Shown: positions 1,792 through 59,018 of the stretch, piece after piece
Layout of the letters: every line of letters begins with the position of its first letter
Position numbering within the stretch: the stretch's first letter is position 1
Assembly: GCF_016595215.1 (NCBI RefSeq)
Contig: NZ_JAENHK010000001.1
Span: 1-64,000, forward strand
Source of the DNA: Chryseobacterium paridis
GTDB taxonomy: Bacteria; Bacteroidota; Bacteroidia; Flavobacteriales; Weeksellaceae
Direction: 5' to 3'
DNA: 64,000 nt
Made by a program: the position numbers and the translations under genes
Notes under the pieces: model-generated
The model's database searches: none
The model's input: the letters and a program-made list of their open reading frames with translations, nothing else
What the model was told of the DNA's origin: nothing

Positions 1792-4700
1792 TTAAAAGCC
1801 TCCGGAATCGCCAAATGTAAATGTTGCAGACAATCCAGCTCTAACAGTTGATAGCGGGAATGCTGTAGAGATTTTGTATTTAGAAGTCATTTGCTCATAG
1901 AATACTCTTAAGTTTAGATTTTCAGAAACATTATAATCTGCAGAAAGCTTTATGTTCATTAATCTTTGTCCTCCTGTAAGTTGAGAATCATCTAATAATA
2001 TATTCGTAACACTTGTTCTGCTATCTCTCAATGAGAAGTCTCCACGGATATTGAGATCACTTCCCTTACCTTTACCTCGTCTTCTGGTGTCATTCACACC
2101 TAATCTGAAGTTACGGATGATATATCCTAGTCTAACTACATATTCTGTGTTTGCATCTTCTGTAAGCGTTTGGTTAACCAATCCTAATAACAACATTCTG
2201 TTTCTGTTGTATTGAATACCAAACTGCATATTGTTTCTCATAGTAACATCAACTCCAATCAATGGTGAGAAAGATTCCACATATCCTACCTGAGAGAATG
2301 TAAATGGATTGATTCTATTTCCATTCACATCAAAGAGACTACCATTGGTTGAAATCGCATTAAAATAATCAATACTTGACTGAATTCCCGTTGCTGTATA
2401 AGTAGCATTATAACTATGTAAAATATCAAACTTAGAGAACTGACCATTGATAATTGGTACATTTCTTAAACCTGAATAAGTTACCTTCCAGTTTGGAATT
2501 GGTAATCCTGCTTTTTTGGCATCTCCAATTGCTTTAGGAGATTTCCCTTCAACTGCTGCCCTAAATGCAGGTATTAAAACATATGCATTACCAATACCAT
2601 ATCCGTCAGTGAAACCATTATTATCTGTAGTAGCAGGATTTCCCATTTGCTGAGAAATAGCTCGCGCGTTCTGTCTAATGGATTGATATACGGCTGCACC
2701 ATCCTTGAAGGAAGTCTTCAAAAGTACCACGGAATTTGAATAAGTAATCAAATCATTCGCAAATGTATAATCATGATTGGTTCTACCTAGATTAAGTCGA
2801 TTATTATATCCTGTCTGTGAAAAATTTCTATTATAATTATGCAATACACTGACATCAATCCTTAAGTCATTCATTGGCACAACCTGCAAATTGGCTCTTA
2901 GTTCTCTTGTTGACATTCGAACGTATGGATCAGTCATATAGTCGGAACCACTCACCCAACCATTCTCAATTACTGTTCTTCGAATATCTGCTTGTGACCC
3001 TAATAGGAATCCAATAGTAGGACCACCTAACGTTTGTCCATACCCATACCAATTTGGTGCAGATAGCAAACCTGGTAATACAGTTCCATTATTTTCTGAA
3101 TAGTTAACATCCAACTGTTTTAAAGAAGTAAGTAAAAATGCTGCACTTTGTAAAACAGTCAGTCTATTTTTAAACTTATAGTTTTTAAACTTATATCTTT
3201 TCTTTTCCCATTGCTGTGTATACACATTATTCAATGAGTCAATCTCCTGCTTACGTTTTGAAAGTTTGGTCGCTATGTTTTTGAAATATTTGAACTGACC
3301 AAAGAACTTAGGGAAATCAGCTGTTGCAGTTGCTTGAATAACATTAGTGTTTTGTCCTATTGATCCTAAACTTTCTGATTTTTGAGTATCTGGATTAACA
3401 AAACTGTATAAAGCAGTAGATCTGGCATTCCAATTATAAGTAAATCCATAACCTAATTCGGCATCGATAAAATCAAGGTACGGTAAGTATTGGAACGGCA
3501 GTTTATAATTTAACTGTACTCTATGGTTATATAAGACAGGTCTTCCCGCTCTGAATACATTTCCAAAAATTGAAGAATTATCCATTGTATTTACATCAAC
3601 GTTATCATTCAATGTTCTTGTTGCAGAATTGATCTCTAATTTTAATGATTTCGTAAAATTAAATCCTAAACCATATTGCCATCCAAAATAGAAGTTTCTA
3701 TTTCTAATCGCTTGAGATTGATCATTAAAATTACCATTGATAATAGCATCAACACTTCGGAACTCAAGTTCATTGTAATTCCTATCAATTTCTGTTCTGA
3801 AAGAGAACCTTGTAGGAATTGGATTAAGATTAAATTCTTTGACCCATCTCAAATACTTCGTTGACTTAGCCGTATCACTAATCATCTTATTAAATGGCTT
3901 GATCACCCAAGGTTTGAAAGTATAATTATAATCTACATAACCTCTAAGATACTGTCGATAATTTTTCTTGGTATAAATATCCCTGAAGAAATCATCGTTG
4001 TACACTGCAGTAACTGAAACATTTTCTACATCATAAAATTTAGGTTTCTTATTAGGATTCACTCTTTCCTTATGCATATTAACAACTCCTAAACTTCTCT
4101 GTTGAGTGTAGGTTCTTGCTACCTTTTTGAGCTGCTCTCTGTTTGGTGCATTCTTAAACTCAACGTCTGTATCTAGTGGATTATACTTAGGATCTTCAAT
4201 AGTTTGTGCGTAAGAATAATTAACCGGAATCTTAACCCCTGTTTTTTCAGGAAGGAATTTATCTAGATTAATAGCAGTATTAATACTAAATGCTGACTGT
4301 GTAGACTGGTTTCTTTCTGCAGGTTTTGAATCAATATTTCCAAATCCAACTGATGTATAAGACCCATTGGCGTTTACTACTGCAAAATCACCAAGATTAA
4401 AGTTTAAACTTGCATTTCCTGCATACCCTCCTTTATTATCAATCTCCGAAAGTCGAATTTCATTAACCCATAATATTCTATCAGGAAGAGCTGCCCTAGT
4501 ATCTCCATTCCTAATACCGATTACTATAGTTGTGATATTTCCTAAACTTGGACGTCCTTTAATATAAATATTTTTAAGAGCATCCCCTTCACCAAATACT
4601 GCATCTCTAATTCTCTTTGAAATATCATTTGGTGCACTTTTATCTCTTCTAATCTTCGCATCAACGAAATTTTGAATTTCCAGATCAACATCATTTTCCA

Positions 4701-33550: not shown

Positions 33551-34924
33551 TTATTCTTTTAATGTTTCATAATAAAGAATCTTTGAAAGGAGAGTTGGTG
33601 ATTTCTCTTTTCTAACTTTATTTATAATTTGTTTTTTTAATTTTATATCATTCTTTTTCTCTGCAAATTCCAGCATTTCTTTCTCACTGAAATTAATAGC
33701 TGTCAAATGATAATTGATTACAAAATCATTTCGTTTCATGTTCTGGGAAGTTATAAATCCACCCCAATTGATATAACTACAAGCCAAAATTGTTCCATAA
33801 AAATACCAGGTCATGGTATTGAACAGGAATGCATTTCTTTTTTTGTACTGAATTTTAATAAACGTCATTATTAATCCTATCAATGATAAAATCAAGAAAG
33901 CATACACTCCCAATCGCTTATAGGTAAAACCATAATTGATGATATATTCGGAATTTTTTATCATCGCAGAAACAATCAATATTGCATTAAAAAATATCCA
34001 GATCTTAGCCAGAGTTTTCATTAACCCTGCTTTTGGATCAAAGTTGAAGCTTGATTTAAAATAAAACATAATAACCAGAATAGCCATAATAATTGACATG
34101 ATCACTGCGTTTACCCTCTCATGAGTCTCTTCTGATAATTGATTGGGAGTCTTCGATGTTTCATAGAACTGTTCATAATTATAGGAAAAGATAAAAAAGA
34201 TCAACAATATATTGAGTAAGAAAAAGGAAATCACTCCGCTCATTCTCTCCGTATCAAGATCCAGAAAAGAATAACTTGACTTTATCATTTTTTCTTTATC
34301 ATGAAAAGTATCATTTAAAATGTGATTTTGCTTATAAATAAGTTTCTCTACGGTATAGTTCCAATAATTAAATGCTATAAACATTCCCAAGACACTAATA
34401 CAGAAGAGTTGCCAGAAATTGAAATCTATTTCAATATTGGCAAATAGTTTCGCAAAGTGGGCACTTCCAACAGAATAGATTCCAAAGAAAACAGCAACTA
34501 ATACTAAAGGGATTAGAATAAATGCAAAGAGCTTTTGCCCCAGACCTGATATATTTCTTTTGGGAAGCCACCCATCGAAACTAAAAAAGCGGCATAAAAA
34601 AGTAAAGCAATTGACTACAAAAACAGGAATAAGCAAAAGTATTTTCATTTTCCTATTTTTTGATCTATACGACAATAATAAAAGTGAACTTACAACCGCT
34701 AGAAATGAAGGAAAGTCTCCATACCATGCAAAGGCAATACTGGAAAGAATACTGGTTATGAAAAGAATCAGAAAAGTTTTGGTCCTATTTTTCTCAGGAG
34801 TTTTGTAGCCAGTAAGTATAGCATAAATAATTCCCAGAATTCCAAGATTCAATCCTACGTTTTCATTGTAAAACAAAAAGACAAATAAAGCGGTTGTAAG
34901 AAATATATAATGATGTGTTTTCAT
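33551..34924 (-). CDS. Polytopic membrane protein, DUF4153/DUF4173-like
   Basis: A 457-residue protein with about eleven hydrophobic helices and a soluble C-terminal tail (NFSEKEMLEFAEKKNDIKLKKQ). Helix order and the YGFTYKRLGVYAFLI segment recall the DUF4153/DUF4173 group of uncharacterised membrane proteins in Bacteroidetes; the exact family number is from memory. It is tightly spaced in an operon: 7 bp after the COQ4-like gene and 5 bp before a lipoprotein gene. Confidence 0.7.
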   Translation of the reverse strand: MKTHHYIFLTTALFVFLFYNENVGLNLGILGIIYAILTGYKTPEKNRTKTFLILFITSILSSIAFAWYGDFPSFLAVVSSLLLLSYRSKNRKMKILLLIPVFVVNCFTFLCRFFSFDGWLPKRNISGLGQKLFAFILIPLVLVAVFFGIYSVGSAHFAKLFANIEIDFNFWQLFCISVLGMFIAFNYWNYTVEKLIYKQNHILNDTFHDKEKMIKSSYSFLDLDTERMSGVISFFLLNILLIFFIFSYNYEQFYETSKTPNQLSEETHERVNAVIMSIIMAILVIMFYFKSSFNFDPKAGLMKTLAKIWIFFNAILIVSAMIKNSEYIINYGFTYKRLGVYAFLILSLIGLIMTFIKIQYKKRNAFLFNTMTWYFYGTILACSYINWGGFITSQNMKRNDFVINYHLTAINFSEKEMLEFAEKKNDIKLKKQIINKVRKEKSPTLLSKILYYETLKE

Positions 34925-54318: not shown

Positions 54319-55524
54319 TTACATTTTTTCAATAACCATTGCGTATCCTTGTCCGACACCAATACAAAGGGTACACAACGCATACTTTTTATCTTGCTTC
54401 TGAAGTTCCATCGCTGCAGAACCTATAATTCTTGCTCCTGAAACTCCAAGCGGGTGGCCAATAGCAATAGCTCCTCCATTTGGATTCACTCTTGAATCGT
54501 CATCTTTTAATCCTAAGCTTCTTGTTACGGCCAAAGCTTGTGCTGCAAAGGCTTCGTTCAATTCAATGACATCCATATCATCCAATGAAAGATTTAATCT
54601 TTTCAATAATTTTTGAGTAGCCTCTACAGGACCTATCCCCATAATTCTTGGCTCAACACCAGCAACGGCAGATCCCAAGATTTTTGCTTTTGGTTTTAAA
54701 CCATATTTTTTAACAGCTTCTTCACTTGCTAAAATAAGTGCTGCTGCACCATCATTCATTCCAGAGGCATTTCCTGCAGTTACTGTACCTTCCTTTCTAA
54801 AAGCCGGACGAAGTTTTCCAAGCCCCTCCATAGAAGAAGTTGGTTTGATGAATTCATCTTTATCAAAAATTTTCGGTTCTCCTTTTTTCTGAGGAATTTC
54901 TACTTTCACAATTTCTTCTGCCAATCTTCCGCTCTCTTGAGCTTTTGTTGCCTTTTGTTGAGACCACAATGCAAATGTGTCCTGATCTTCTCTGTTGATC
55001 TGATGAAGGTCCGCTAAATTTTCAGCAGTATCACCCATTCCATCTACGCCGTACAGCTCTTTCATTCTAGGGTTTATAAAACGCCATCCGAAAGTAGTAT
55101 CAAACATTTGACTATCTCTTCCGAAAGCTGCACCTGGTTTTGACATTACATATGGAGAACGGGTCATATGCTCCACTCCACCTGCTATATAAATTTCACC
55201 TTCACCAGCTGCAATTGATCTGAATGCATTAGCAACCGCAGACATTCCTGAAGCACACAGCCTGTTGACTGTCTCTCCTCCAATTTTATAAGGAAGTCCA
55301 GCCAACAAAAGTCCCATTCTGGCCACGTTACGATTATCTTCCCCAGCCTGATTTGCACATCCAAAAATAACATCTTCAATTTCTTCTACCGGAACTTCAG
55401 GATTTCTTGCTACAATTTCTTTGATAACAATTGCTGCTAAATCATCAGCTCTTACTTCTGATAGTCCTCCCTGTAATTTTGAAATTGGAGTTCTGATATA
55501 ATCTATGATGTATACGTTATTCAT
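54319..55524 (-). CDS. paaJ: 3-oxoadipyl-CoA thiolase
   Basis: Final thiolysis of phenylacetate breakdown, giving acetyl-CoA and succinyl-CoA. It has 401 residues, normal for the family. Catalytic residues: Cys in NRLCASGMSAV, His in NPNGGAIAIGHPLG, Cys in TLCIGVGQGYAM. The N terminus (IDYIRTPISKLQGGLSEV) is typical of PaaJ/PcaF. It lies in the paa operon just upstream of paaY. Confidence 0.93.
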   Translation of the reverse strand: MNNVYIIDYIRTPISKLQGGLSEVRADDLAAIVIKEIVARNPEVPVEEIEDVIFGCANQAGEDNRNVARMGLLLAGLPYKIGGETVNRLCASGMSAVANAFRSIAAGEGEIYIAGGVEHMTRSPYVMSKPGAAFGRDSQMFDTTFGWRFINPRMKELYGVDGMGDTAENLADLHQINREDQDTFALWSQQKATKAQESGRLAEEIVKVEIPQKKGEPKIFDKDEFIKPTSSMEGLGKLRPAFRKEGTVTAGNASGMNDGAAALILASEEAVKKYGLKPKAKILGSAVAGVEPRIMGIGPVEATQKLLKRLNLSLDDMDVIELNEAFAAQALAVTRSLGLKDDDSRVNPNGGAIAIGHPLGVSGARIIGSAAMELQKQDKKYALCTLCIGVGQGYAMVIEKM

Positions 55525-55532
55525 ATTATTTT

Positions 55533-56012
55533 AATTTATCAATTTAACAATGTAACAATTTGGCAATATTAAATTGATTGGTTTTTATTTAGGTTTTTGT
55601 TTAGGCTTGTACTTAATATTTTATAAATAATTTTCCCTAATTCAACAATTTGATGTTCTAACTTTTCATCAAACGGATAGTTTTTGGAATGTTTACACAA
55701 ATACAGCCAATATTTGGTCTCTTCTAATTCTTTGGCTGAAATCTTAATTTTGTGAATAAAATCATTTTTACTGTGAGGATTTTGGGCTTCAAATGCATTT
55801 GCCCCAATACTTGTTCCGGAACGCAATAGTTGTTTCGCAATAACAAATTTTCTTTTTTCTTCTAACAGCTCACAGAATTCAATAATATCTAATGAAAATT
55901 GAACAGTCTTCTGGATCAATGGATTATTTTCAAAATTTATCATCAGCTTAAAATTACGTTGATATTTATATTGTTACATAGCTAAATTGATACTTTGGTA
56001 AATTGATAAATT
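55533..56012. mobile_element. Inverted-repeat-bounded cassette A (four-helix-bundle gene)
   Basis: A cassette of 480 bp bounded by two 32-nt inverted arms (55533-55564 and 55981-56012). Reading the right arm as its complement, 28 of 32 positions match, with the shared opening AATTTATCAATTTA. The only gene is the four-helix-bundle protein. The outer ends abut paa genes: the right end overlaps the first two bases of the paaI stop, and the left end is 8 bp from the paaJ start. There is no transposase. The arms look like terminal inverted repeats of a small non-autonomous element. Confidence 0.6.
55569..55943 (-). CDS. Four-helix-bundle protein, 23S rRNA IVP family (cassette A)
   Basis: A 124-residue, all-helical protein of the 23S rRNA intervening-sequence/S23 family, related in fold to Avd of diversity-generating retroelements. 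The signature is LLRSGTSIGANAFEAQNPHS, then KNDFIHKIKISAKELEETKYWL. Family function is not established. It sits between paaI and paaJ, enclosed by inverted repeats, and has a paralogue in this operon (57829-58182) whose signature reads SGTSIGANVREAQNAESKAD. It is an insertion into the paa operon rather than a paa gene. Confidence 0.9.
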   Translation of the reverse strand: MINFENNPLIQKTVQFSLDIIEFCELLEEKRKFVIAKQLLRSGTSIGANAFEAQNPHSKNDFIHKIKISAKELEETKYWLYLCKHSKNYPFDEKLEHQIVELGKIIYKILSTSLNKNLNKNQSI

Positions 56013-56424
56013 ATAATTCTACTACTTTTTTTCCAATTTTATAAACTGTTCCGGTAAATTTAGCAATCAGCTCTTCATTTTGATTCGTGATTACAATATC
56101 GTAGATCGCTGTTTTTCTGGTATTATTCACTAATTTACTTTCGGCTCTGAAGACATCACCTTCTTTTCCTGCTTTGGTAAAATTGATGATACAATTTAAT
56201 GCTACCGCAGCATCTCCGGAACTGTTGGATGAGAAAGCTAATGCAGAATCTGCAAAAGCAAATGTAACTCCTCCGTGAACCGTTTTTAACCCATTAATCA
56301 TATCTTTCTTGATGGGCATTTCTAGTAAACAATAATTTTCTTTTACTTCAATCATTTTGATATTCATCCACTGGGAGAAATAATCCTGATCGAACATATA
56401 ATCGACAACTTGTTTCGGCGTCAT
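56011..56424 (-). CDS. paaI: PaaI hydroxyphenylacetyl-CoA thioesterase
   Basis: A hotdog-fold thioesterase of 137 residues that releases CoA from dead-end phenylacetyl-CoA derivatives. The catalytic region reads GLKTVHGGVTFAFADSALAF. The start overlaps the preceding small ORF by 4 bp (ATGA-type), so the two are coupled. Its stop codon overlaps the right arm of cassette A. Confidence 0.9.
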   Translation of the reverse strand: MTPKQVVDYMFDQDYFSQWMNIKMIEVKENYCLLEMPIKKDMINGLKTVHGGVTFAFADSALAFSSNSSGDAAVALNCIINFTKAGKEGDVFRAESKLVNNTRKTAIYDIVITNQNEELIAKFTGTVYKIGKKVVEL

Positions 56425-56642
56425 TTATTATTTTTTAATGTATTACTTTTATTTATCAGATCGATAAGATAGTATATCACAAAAATCCCTAAGAAATACA
56501 ATGAATATAGTTTCCAATTTAAATTTTCGTAAGAAGAAATTTGAGATTCTTTACTATCAGGCATCTTTATGAGGATAAACATAAAAGTCATAAAAAAAGC
56601 AACAGCAGTACATTTTATGATTCTTTTTTTATAAATGTTCAT
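56421..56642 (-). CDS. Small membrane protein, unknown function
   Basis: A 73-residue protein with two hydrophobic helices (AVAFFMTFMFILIKM and LYSLYFLGIFVIYYLIDLI). No family recognised. It starts 12 bp after the paaH stop and overlaps paaI by 4 bp, so it is translated in the paa operon. Confidence 0.6.
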   Translation of the reverse strand: MNIYKKRIIKCTAVAFFMTFMFILIKMPDSKESQISSYENLNWKLYSLYFLGIFVIYYLIDLINKSNTLKNNK

Positions 56643-56654
56643 TTTAAAGATGTA

Positions 56655-57788
56655 TTAAATTAATTTCTTTAGCAATGGGCTTTGTCTGTATCTTTCTTCC
56701 TGATATTCCTGATAGAGATCTTGTAAGGTTTCAGAAATTTTTGAATATCCTATTTCTTTCCCCCAGCTTAACAATCCCTTCGGATAATTTACACCTTTTT
56801 GCATTGCTAATTCGATGTCCTCATCATTGGCAACTCCTAATCTTTTTGCTTCTACTGCTTCGTTAATAAGCATCGAGATGATTCTAAGAAATATTTGTTG
56901 GTATAAAGTTTCATCCTTCTGAGCAACAGGATTTTCAGCACCTTCACTATAATCGAAGAAACCTTTTCCGGTTTTTCTACCATGAAGTTTAGCCTCAGAC
57001 ATACGTTGCTGCAATAAAGAAGGTTTGTATTTAGGATCATTGAAATAATCCTTATAAACTGTAGTTGTAACAGAGAAATTCACATCAACTCCAATGAGAT
57101 CCATCAATTCAAAAGGTCCCATTTTAAAGCTCCCCAATGTTCTCATCGCATCATCTACCTGTTCCGGTGTAGCTATGTTTTCCTCAACAATTCTTAATCC
57201 CTCGCCATAATAAGGACGGGCAATTCTGTTCACAATAAATCCTGGAATATCTTTAGCAATTACAGGAACTTTTCCCCATTCTTTCATGAGTTTGTACATT
57301 TTCTCTGCTAAAGATTTTTCAGTTAATAAAGAAGGAATAATTTCAACCAAAGGCATTAATGGTGCTGGATTGAAAAAATGGATCCCAATGAAACGTTCCG
57401 GTTTCTTTAATTCCGAACCAAGAGAGGTAATGGAAATAGATGATGTATTGGAACTGATCACACAGTTTTCAGAAACATGATTTTCTAATTCTGTGAAAAC
57501 TTTGGTTTTAATTTCTTTGTTTTCAATAATGGCTTCAATGACTAATTCACAGTCTTTGAAATCTTTTAATTCTGTAGCGATAGAAATATTGGCTAAAATT
57601 TCAGTCATCTTTTCTCCTGAAATTTTCTGTTTATCCACCAGTTTGGTTAATGTTTTTTCCAAACCTACGGTTGCCGTTTCTATTTGTTTTGGATTGGCAT
57701 CATATACCCAAACTTTGCATCCGTTCGTTGCGGCTACTTGTGCGATGCCTATTCCCATAGTTCCGGCACCAATAATTCCTACATTCAT
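56655..57788 (-). CDS. paaH: 3-hydroxyacyl-CoA dehydrogenase PaaH
   Basis: NAD-dependent oxidation of 3-hydroxyadipyl-CoA. The Rossmann motif is GAGTMGIGIAQVAA; the catalytic stretch is HFFNPAPLMPLVEIIP with the following GKVPVIAKDIPGFIVNRI. At 377 residues it carries a second C-terminal domain beyond the usual 280-residue form. It lies between cassette B and the small membrane protein gene. Confidence 0.92.
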   Translation of the reverse strand: MNVGIIGAGTMGIGIAQVAATNGCKVWVYDANPKQIETATVGLEKTLTKLVDKQKISGEKMTEILANISIATELKDFKDCELVIEAIIENKEIKTKVFTELENHVSENCVISSNTSSISITSLGSELKKPERFIGIHFFNPAPLMPLVEIIPSLLTEKSLAEKMYKLMKEWGKVPVIAKDIPGFIVNRIARPYYGEGLRIVEENIATPEQVDDAMRTLGSFKMGPFELMDLIGVDVNFSVTTTVYKDYFNDPKYKPSLLQQRMSEAKLHGRKTGKGFFDYSEGAENPVAQKDETLYQQIFLRIISMLINEAVEAKRLGVANDEDIELAMQKGVNYPKGLLSWGKEIGYSKISETLQDLYQEYQEERYRQSPLLKKLI

Positions 57789-57802
57789 ATTTTAAATTTG
57801 AA

Positions 57803-58215
57803 AATTTGAAAATGAGTTAATTTGAAAATTATTTAAATTTTGACGTAGAAATAATTTTATTAATAATTAATATAATTTCTTTTAAACTTGAAAGTAATTT
57901 CTCATCAGGAGAATTTAAATACTCTGACTGTAGACATAACAAAAGCCAATATTCTGTTTCATCTGCTTCTTTGGCTGCAATTTTTATTTTATGAATAAAA
58001 TCAGCCTTGCTTTCTGCATTCTGAGCTTCTCTTACATTGGCTCCGATCGAAGTTCCTGATTTAAAAATTTGATTTGCTAACGAGTATTTATTAATCTTAT
58101 ACAGACTTTCCGAAAATTCAATAATATGTAATGCAAATTCGAAAGTCTTGTTTACGATAATATTTTCTCTGTCATTCCTCATTTTCAAATTTTCAAATTA
58201 ACTCATTTCCAAATT
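57803..58215. mobile_element. Inverted-repeat-bounded cassette B (four-helix-bundle gene)
   Basis: A cassette of about 413 bp bounded by inverted 28-nt arms (57803-57830 and 58188-58215), matching at 27 of 28 positions, with core AAATGAGTTAATTTGAAAAT. It contains only the second four-helix-bundle gene. The right arm ends 2 bp from the paaG stop and the left arm starts 14 bp from the paaH start. The arm sequence differs from that of cassette A. Confidence 0.6.
57829..58182 (-). CDS. Four-helix-bundle protein, 23S rRNA IVP family (cassette B)
   Basis: A 117-residue all-helical protein with the family signature SGTSIGANVREAQNAESKAD followed by FIHKIKIAAKEADETEYWLL. The start used is ATG at 58182; a TTG two codons upstream is possible. 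It is paralogous to the cassette A protein but clearly diverged. It lies between paaG and paaH within inverted repeats; the stop codon falls inside the left arm. Confidence 0.9.
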   Translation of the reverse strand: MRNDRENIIVNKTFEFALHIIEFSESLYKINKYSLANQIFKSGTSIGANVREAQNAESKADFIHKIKIAAKEADETEYWLLLCLQSEYLNSPDEKLLSSLKEIILIINKIISTSKFK

Positions 58216-58217
58216 GA

Positions 58218-59018
58218 TTATCTTCCTTTATAATTAGGTTTTCTTTTCTGTAAAAAGGCATTTACACCTTCAATGAAATCTTCAGTTTCTGCTGCCTCCT
58301 GCTGTAGATCACCTTCTAACTCAAGCTGCTCTTTCAATGTATTGTTGTATGATTGAGCAAAAGCTTTTTTAGTTAATTTTATAGCTGCCGTTGGCATATT
58401 CGCCATTCTTTCTAAGATCTCCATTGACTTTGGAACGAACTCCTCTTCTGTGAAAACTTCAGCCACTAATCCATGGCTTTTTGATTCTTCTGCGGATAGT
58501 TTTTTTCCTGTAAAAGCCAAATAGTTTGCTAACTGTCTTCCTAATAATTTAGGCAAGAAGTAAGTTCCACCTGTATCAGGAATTAATCCAATATTTGAAA
58601 ATGCCTGAGCAAAATAAGATTTATCAACGGCTAAAACAAAATCACAAATCAATGCTAACATAGCACCAGCCCCTACTGCAGGACCATTTACTAAAGCAAC
58701 AACAGGTTTCCTGCAATGCGTAATTTCCGTCACCAAAGGATTATAATAATCCACTACAATTTTTCTAATGATATCATTATCATGATGCTCATTACCTTGC
58801 ACGAACGCATCATCTAAATTTTGTCCGGAGCAAAATGCTCTTCCTCTTCCGGAAATTGCCACACATCTTACTGTGTCATCATTATTACAATCGCTAATAA
58901 AATCTTTTAAATCTGATAAAGATGGCTTAGTAAGAGCATTCATCGTTTCCGGTTGATTCAGGTAAGCTATTTTGAGTTTCCCATCAAAATGCGTTTCAAT
59001 ATCAAGTTGTGTATACAT
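58218..59018 (-). CDS. paaG: PaaG-type enoyl-CoA hydratase/isomerase
   Basis: Converts ring-epoxyphenylacetyl-CoA to oxepin-CoA. It has 266 residues. The crotonase oxyanion segments are GRAFCSGQNLDDAF and GPAVGAGAMLALICDFVLA; IGLIPDTGGTYFLPKLLG has the Asp found in PaaG, and the closing EGVNAFLQKRKPNYKGR matches PaaG well. I prefer PaaG to PaaF on these features. It is the only such gene in the visible operon. Confidence 0.88.
   Translation of the reverse strand: MYTQLDIETHFDGKLKIAYLNQPETMNALTKPSLSDLKDFISDCNNDDTVRCVAISGRGRAFCSGQNLDDAFVQGNEHHDNDIIRKIVVDYYNPLVTEITHCRKPVVALVNGPAVGAGAMLALICDFVLAVDKSYFAQAFSNIGLIPDTGGTYFLPKLLGRQLANYLAFTGKKLSAEESKSHGLVAEVFTEEEFVPKSMEILERMANMPTAAIKLTKKAFAQSYNNTLKEQLELEGDLQQEAAETEDFIEGVNAFLQKRKPNYKGR

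Follow-up and report, generated by a model that had tools for sequence, protein, structure and literature searches.

The window analysed here, a 64-kb stretch of DNA from Chryseobacterium paridis, contains two small genes of the S23/IVP family set between genes of a paa operon, each bounded by a pair of inverted arms. The features of this region are as follows.

54319..55524, minus strand: paaJ/pcaF-like 3-oxoadipyl-CoA thiolase, the downstream host gene (NCBIfam PRK09050 and TIGR02430, both above cut-off)
55528..55567, minus strand: 3' arm of S23a (in the sense of S23a), an array of period 8 nt lying 3 nt away from the start codon of paaJ (complementarity, period, RNA fold)
55569..55943, minus strand: S23a, an S23/IVP four-helix-bundle gene of 124 aa (ORF, PF05635, TIGR02436, AF2 model, dN/dS)
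55978..56017, minus strand: 5' arm of S23a (in the sense of S23a), an 8-nt periodic array overlapping the end of paaI (34/40 complementary; partner arm of period 8)
56011..56424, minus strand: paaI-like thioesterase, the upstream host gene (PF03061; TIGR02286 at 114.4 bits, just below its cut-off of 118.9)
56655..57788, minus strand: paaH-like 3-hydroxyacyl-CoA dehydrogenase (PF02737, PF00725)
57803..57830, minus strand: 3' arm of S23b (27/28 complementary)
57829..58188, minus strand: S23b, the second S23/IVP gene, between paaG and paaH (ORF; PF05635, E 1.3e-24); the coordinates are those of a TTG start, with an ATG at the third codon
58188..58215, minus strand: 5' arm of S23b (27/28 complementary)
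58218..59018, minus strand: paaG-like enoyl-CoA hydratase/isomerase (PF00378)

A first-pass annotation of this DNA had placed the gene between paaI and paaJ in the S23 family. The ORF at 55569-55943 (minus strand) bears this out, exceeding the curated cut-offs of both PF05635 (76.2 bits against 33.8, E 2.8e-21) and TIGR02436 (88.6 against 24). The annotation had also reported arms at 55533-55564 and 55981-56012 that match at 28 of 32 positions, the right one touching the paaI stop codon. Both points hold: no other inverted repeat within 700 nt scores as high anywhere in the window as these arms, and when extended to 55528-55567 and 55978-56017 they match at 34 of 40 positions, with the right arm running over the last bases of paaI (56011-56424). 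Absent from that annotation were the make-up of the arms, which are tandem 8-nt units (CAATNTAN-like) in place of unique sequence, and the second cassette between paaG and paaH.

With the detector used, three inverted repeats in the window scored at least 16 within 700 nt. The highest score, 26.8, belongs to the repeat around S23a and the second highest, 25.8, to that around S23b. Dinucleotide shuffling of the window, repeated 40 times, gave best scores that averaged 15.1 and never exceeded 20.2. The arms of S23a are AT-rich, as would be expected if they were low-complexity sequence paired by chance, but a chance origin is refuted by the shuffle maximum and by a G+C-rich example elsewhere (L161), and its probability is negligible. 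The third-strongest inverted repeat of the window (33598-34234) scored 18.4 and has a loop of 543.

Folding of the S23a strand as RNA is predicted to pair both arms (z -2.14; 3 of 100 shuffles were as good). In the plasmid collection searched there was no match to the S23a cassette, and a Pfam scan of six proteins at 54319-59018, two of them S23 and four paa, found no reverse transcriptase. Proteins partially related to S23a are encoded on two phage contigs from human faeces, MT835815 and MT835590, with identities of 48% and 40% across 60-65% of S23a.

PF05635 is the only Pfam match of S23a at E 0.001, and its AF2 model (pLDDT 92.8) is a four-helix bundle rather than a tyrosine transposase. 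The best structural match is 2rld (Z 17.8), followed by 2gsc (Z 16.2); the S23 profile finds these same two entries at E 3.6e-25 or better, and each contains five chains. The S23 protein of X. campestris is described as a homopentameric toroid (PMC4990558). A relationship to Avd, an accessory protein of diversity-generating retroelements, had been proposed in the first-pass annotation. The model does match Avd of the Bordetella phage retroelement, both by itself and as part of the ribonucleoprotein (Z 12.8-13.3), but such values are borderline for helical bundles, and unrelated bundles come next at Z 11.7 and below. The fold shared with Avd (4dwl, 8ub7, 8ube) extends over 104-107 residues at Z 13.1-13.3, whereas the reverse transcriptase with which Avd belongs is lacking among the six proteins at 54319-59018.

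S23/IVP genes are widespread in the phylum, with at least one above the curated cut-off in 113 of the 148 genomes sampled. The genome of the window has 12, with differing types of repeat. The first-pass annotation had named inverted arms around S23 genes of other genomes as a check on its proposal, and such arms proved to be common. In a phylum set of 45 S23 loci (12 from the genome of the window and 33 from other genera), the 200 nt upstream and the 200 nt downstream of each gene were compared. The median match was 16.0 in inverted orientation; direct orientation gave 9.6, and flanks taken from different genomes gave 9.0. The inverted match exceeded the 95% level of the cross-locus null at 33/45 loci and the 99% level at 24/45, while the direct match exceeded the 95% level at seven. 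A second set comprised 79 of 80 S23 loci from a collection of named genomes, one being dropped for a short flank. Its titles include Bacteroidota, Desulfobacteria, Nitrospirae, Firmicutes, Proteobacteria, Acidobacteria, Planctomycetes and others; several are bins of metagenome-assembled genomes (MAGs) and may be misassigned, and the S23 protein of a 'Limnohabitans' entry (L278) is 81-86% like those of Flavobacteria. Here the medians were 16.0 inverted, 9.0 direct and 8.8 across loci, with 56/79 inverted matches above the 95% level and 35/79 above the 99% level (direct: 14 and 10). Arms did not rise above the 95% level at 12 of the 45 and 23 of the 79 loci. An earlier comparison of 41 loci, most of them from the genus, had put 10 above the 95% level, a weak result because orthologues share arms and so inflate the null.

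The inverted score is also higher at S23 genes than at other genes of the same loci (medians 16.0, n=121, and 9.2, n=113; p 4e-19), but a few of the other genes have repeats that are stronger still: 30 of the 121 S23 loci lie above the 95% level of these genes, 20.7, and none lies above their 99% level. Arm sequence follows the protein: between different organisms, arm likeness (5-mer cosine) was 0.20-0.22 for S23 proteins less than 60% identical, 0.33 at 60-70% and 0.52 above that. The Mantel correlation of arm likeness with protein identity was 0.13, with 5 of 500 permutations as high; among the closest pairs, some may come from orthologous loci. An Rfam scan of 20 of the 80 multi-phylum loci gave no rRNA match. 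It did pick out two Acido-Lenti-1 RNAs near the S23 gene of a KSB1 MAG (L233:3486-3531 and 4059-4104) and a group II intron match about 2 kb from that of a Gemmataceae MAG (L298:3637-3736).

The arms have a characteristic period. In 121 S23 loci compared with 113 other genes, the upstream flanks are enriched at lags 7, 8 and 14 (p 6e-14, 5e-8 and 1.5e-11), the remaining lags from 4 to 13 giving p of at least 0.04. The same lags stand out downstream (p 3.5e-6, 1e-3 and 3e-3; others at least 0.17). Upstream, runs of at least four AG occur at lag 7 in 41 of 123 flanks and at lag 8 in 23, with 0-2 at lags 4-6 and 9-12, and CT runs occur in four (lag 7) and five (lag 8) of the 123. The downstream mirror pattern is CT, at lag 7 in 37 and at lag 8 in 21 of 124 flanks. 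S23a is exceptional in that CAA, not AG, recurs every 8 nt. The usual setting of an S23 gene is a pair of inverted arrays built from 7- or 8-nt units, of types that differ between genes. Allowing one miss, five is the commonest number of AG units in an upstream flank (30/123), and another 62 of these flanks have two to four, many of them no doubt background. The match between five repeat units and five S23 subunits is suggestive only.

The orientation of S23 genes relative to their surroundings is also biased. Neighbour strands were callable at 95 of 125 S23 loci, and both neighbours lay on the S23 strand at 71 of the 95, compared with 46-52% of control ORFs (p ~1e-5); both lay on the opposite strand at four, compared with 11-12% of controls (p 0.03-0.04). 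Such an excess is unexpected from plain DNA transposition and is favoured by transcription through the unit. The strand of hairpins without a gene is uninformative, since a palindrome reads alike both ways.

Arrays of the same kind also occur away from S23 genes. One S23 gene of the genome of the window (C10:153602) has flanks of the GAAAGTT type, and a search with a gene-less hairpin of this type placed GAAAGTT arrays at 38 or more separate sites of that genome, of which one adjoins an S23 gene. This figure is a lower bound, since 40 of 140 candidates were scored and 100 matches listed, and the pattern count shows further sites. When 30 of these loci, some of them overlapping, were passed through the detector, 14 had an inverted partner and 16 were one-sided. 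Three gene-less GAAAGTT hairpins (L166:11952-12139, L168:2254-2462 and L171:1724-1850) have a second heptamer (CGAGATN-like) in their loops, as if nested.

Among the 98 genomes of the genus, the pattern of three GAAARTK units followed by GAAA was present in three (76, 26 and 4 matches) and gave zero matches in the other 95; the reversed control gave 0-3. The best hosts of the C10-type S23 protein are these same three genomes, at 100, 64 and 61% identity, the next by E-value being 54 and 56% identical. The chance that the two other array genomes would coincide with the best S23 hosts is 1 in 4,656, taking the genome of the window as given and ignoring kinship. In all three the gene lies, to judge by eye from its flanks, at one shared locus with three to four GAAAGTT-type units upstream. 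Of six more distant homologues, five are without GAAA-type units; the sixth (L406 in G095, with one in-frame stop) has four such units upstream, yet its genome is without arrays. At 10 of 12 array loci from the two other genomes, G092 and G097, no inverted partner was found. Those 12 sites have no stretch of at least 90 nt in common with the 30 array loci of the window's genome and part of its other sequence, and from this comparison the arrays seem to lie largely at different places in the three genomes. On the tree G092 is the row nearest to the genome of the window and G097 falls in another clade. Part of the agreement could therefore be shared descent, G092 being the nearest row. One repeat family, GAAAGTT, thus co-occurs with its closest S23 gene.

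The corresponding link for the octamers of S23a is looser, and is an association only. The median number of octamer arrays is 18 in the 30 genomes with an S23a-like DNA match and 5 in the 68 without (p 7e-9), and the contrast persists after subtracting four arrays from each of the 30 (p 7e-6). Ten genomes free of S23a nonetheless have more than 15 octamer arrays (33 in G089, 29 in G063, 27 in G083, and seven more), and five of them (G063, G065, G074, G103 and G108) contain no S23a-like protein at E 1e-20. Ten tree-independent pairs, taken from starred branches, gave 5.2 for and 0.2 against the link (median p 0.06). Periodic inverted repeats as a whole, at 17.5, 5, 40 and 5 per Mb in S23-bearing genomes and 10, 0 and 0 in S23-free ones, give no clean separation.

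DNA matches of at least 74% to the C11 copy fall at two shared loci, with one further copy in G087. The first-pass annotation had looked to similar arms around S23 genes at unrelated sites as a sign of mobility, and such arms do flank an S23 gene at an unrelated site, its protein there being 83-85% identical. In the pair formed by S23a and C11, DNA identity ends near the ends of the ORF; of the 40 best pairs listed in which similar S23 genes have unrelated surroundings, none is more telling than this one on where the element ends.

The paaI-paaJ junction itself was followed in relatives. A paaJ match was found in 97 of the 98 genus genomes (own included); two relatives with partial matches were left out of the 94 listed, from which the paaG-paaJ regions of 80 were sampled. 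S23a occupies the paaI-paaJ gap in 16 of the 80, as 14 copies near full length and two remnants, and at least three of the 14 have broken frames. An S23a-like match is absent from the gap in the other 64, of which 46 have short spacers and 18, classed by length alone, have gaps of more than 300 nt. Folding of 44 of these 46 spacers, with no shuffled control for comparison, gave mostly imperfect short-period hairpins of several sequence types, a few of them weak. The first-pass annotation had named clean junctions in strains lacking the cassette as support for its proposal; the gene is indeed absent from 64 of the 80, but clean empty sites were not found, their places being taken by the short, mostly hairpin-like spacers and the longer inserts. 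The longer inserts (e.g. L098, L111) have no S23a match and in most of those shown there is apparently another gene. An octamer half-arm still ends some of these gaps (L068, L076, L106, L111). In G090 the region after paaH (L096:3157-3746) holds several tandem copies of the paaH tail with an octamer hairpin, 128 nt apart.

On a weakly supported protein tree of 80 rows (79 relatives and the window), the presence of S23a requires 16 changes, and the near-full-length label 14, compared with 13.3 in shuffles, so that it is unclustered. These tree tests are based on one operon. The 49 changes of gap type are indicative only, as the classes follow simple string rules and some C and D labels are wrong by eye. 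The site thus turns over rapidly, and where the gene is absent no simple clean junction stands in its place. The intact copies are under purifying selection at the protein level, with a median dN/dS of 0.057 (77 pairs from 13 long-frame sequences; dS ~1). Compensatory evolution of the arms was considered and dropped, because among orthologues own arms (mean -28.1 kcal/mol) have only a slight advantage in pairing over swapped ones (-24.2; shuffled, -10.8) and were the best in their row in 2 of 13.

Besides Avd, three known systems bear comparison with these units. In Coxiella, the intervening sequence (IVS) of the 23S rRNA contains an S23p ORF preceded by tandem heptamers, GACAGAT; its ends form a 28-bp stem, it is excised by RNase III, and its ORF has been judged to be in reductive evolution (PMC4990558). 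The units described here resemble it in having an S23-family ORF, complementary terminal arms able to form a stem, and tandem heptamers beside the ORF. In contrast, S23a is found outside rRNA, between paaI and paaJ in a catabolic operon; its intact copies are conserved, and its stem is a predicted one, a putative substrate of RNase III. Dispersed cognate arrays are present here, whereas the parts of the Coxiella account consulted make no mention of them (PMC4990558).

RAYT genes likewise lie between two inverted repeats, the REPs, with which they co-evolve, and the abundance of the cognate repeats follows the presence of the gene (PMC2817692). S23a and S23b each lie between two inverted repeats in the same way, and arm sequence tends to follow the S23 protein. 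Repeat abundance follows the gene for GAAAGTT and the C10-type S23; for the octamer of S23a there is an association only, ten array-rich genomes being free of S23a. The proteins differ, RAYTs being tyrosine transposases and S23 a four-helix bundle, and so do the repeats, as REPs are palindromes of 20-40 bp (PMC3733652) and the arms here are arrays of 7- or 8-nt units. Arrays of the heptamer TAACTGA have been described in Beggiatoaceae, some cyanobacteria and five Bacteroidetes (PMC4679880). They too are heptameric, dispersed and mostly intergenic, but consist of a single fixed heptamer, nearly always in direct repeats. Binding proteins were merely proposed for them, the authors suggesting that a repeat-binding protein might be the mobile element; neither 'S23' nor 'four helix' appears in the text (PMC4679880). 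In anatomy the present units are closest to the S23-bearing IVS of Coxiella, and in genome behaviour to RAYT/REP systems, but S23a falls within the definition of neither, as it is not in rRNA and is no tyrosine transposase. Our search of the open-access literature found no paper that connects heptamer arms with S23 genes lying elsewhere than in rRNA, although one may exist.

We consider it probable that S23a and its arms are one instance of a general kind of element, made up of a protein and its cognate repeat. The anatomy of the units, their 7- and 8-nt periodicity, the same-strand excess, the selection on S23a, the turnover of its site, the kinship of arms with proteins and the co-occurrence of arrays with a gene are all features that our data show; the binding, RNA processing and mobility that such an element may entail are inferred from them. 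The S23 gene would lie between inverted 7- or 8-nt arrays, with cognate arrays, one-sided or as gene-less hairpins, dispersed through the genome. The S23 pentamer would most likely bind its own array as RNA or single-stranded DNA, at about one unit per subunit. In a transcript, pairing of the arms would give a long stem whose loop holds the S23 ORF, an arrangement also seen in the rRNA intervening sequences excised by RNase III; the paired arms may set the unit apart from the message of its host, and RNase III would perhaps act on them. The interaction between protein and array would maintain the arrays or spread them. To our knowledge, no catalytic activity is known for the four-helix-bundle S23 fold, which counts against this reading.

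The same features can be read in other ways. S23a could be an intervening sequence borne by an mRNA, whose essential part is the stem. RNase III would cut the transcript at the arms, the S23 protein would be a passenger or would act on the RNA of its own element only, and there would be no link in trans to dispersed arrays. The Coxiella IVS, with its S23p ORF, 28-bp stem, GACAGAT heptamers and RNase III cutting (PMC4990558), is the model for this, and both the predicted pairing of the S23a arms and the 71 of 95 loci with S23 on the strand of both neighbours are in keeping with it. It leaves unexplained why GAAAGTT arrays, with at least 38 sites in the genome of the window, occur only in the three genomes (of 98 sampled) that have the closest S23, and the strong conservation of intact S23a contrasts with the reductive evolution attributed to the Coxiella ORF (PMC4990558). 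We regard it as unlikely, though worth serious consideration. The hairpins might instead be host elements for the stability or processing of mRNA between operon genes, in or near which S23 genes tend to insert. Gaps free of S23a do contain short-period hairpin-like spacers, of other types, as this would predict, but host elements would give no reason for arm sequence to track S23 kinship across organisms or for GAAAGTT arrays to track the closest S23, and we find the idea highly improbable.

The first-pass annotation favoured a conventional mobile cassette with terminal inverted repeats, moved by a transposase supplied in trans. The patchy presence of S23a (16/80, with the 16 changes on the weakly supported tree) and the similar unit at a second site are what such a cassette would leave behind, and this part of the proposal stands. 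The unit is without a transposase, the comparison of relatives brought out no fresh insertion, its arms are periodic arrays that vary in sequence and offer no fixed terminus, and the matches of at least 74% to the C11 copy are confined to two shared loci and the one copy in G087. The strand bias is likewise unexpected under plain DNA transposition. Taken in this conventional form, mobility seems to us improbable, if a shade less so than host-encoded hairpins.

Returning to an element of protein and cognate repeat, a broader form of the proposal may be put forward tentatively, as a possibility that we hold with less confidence than we would need to prefer it. S23 would be the protein half of unrecognised protein-plus-repeat systems, in which pentameric rings each read their own array of about five units, in the manner of the TRAP ring with its spaced triplets, and spread or maintain the arrays without a transposase of their own, the rRNA intervening sequences being the best-known special case. 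The S23 family, long mysterious, gains a candidate substrate in its own repeat array, which can be read from the flanks of each gene. Three puzzles, those of S23 genes, rRNA intervening sequences and dispersed heptamer arrays, are thereby linked. If the arrays do spread without a transposase, this would be a new route of repeat multiplication in bacteria.
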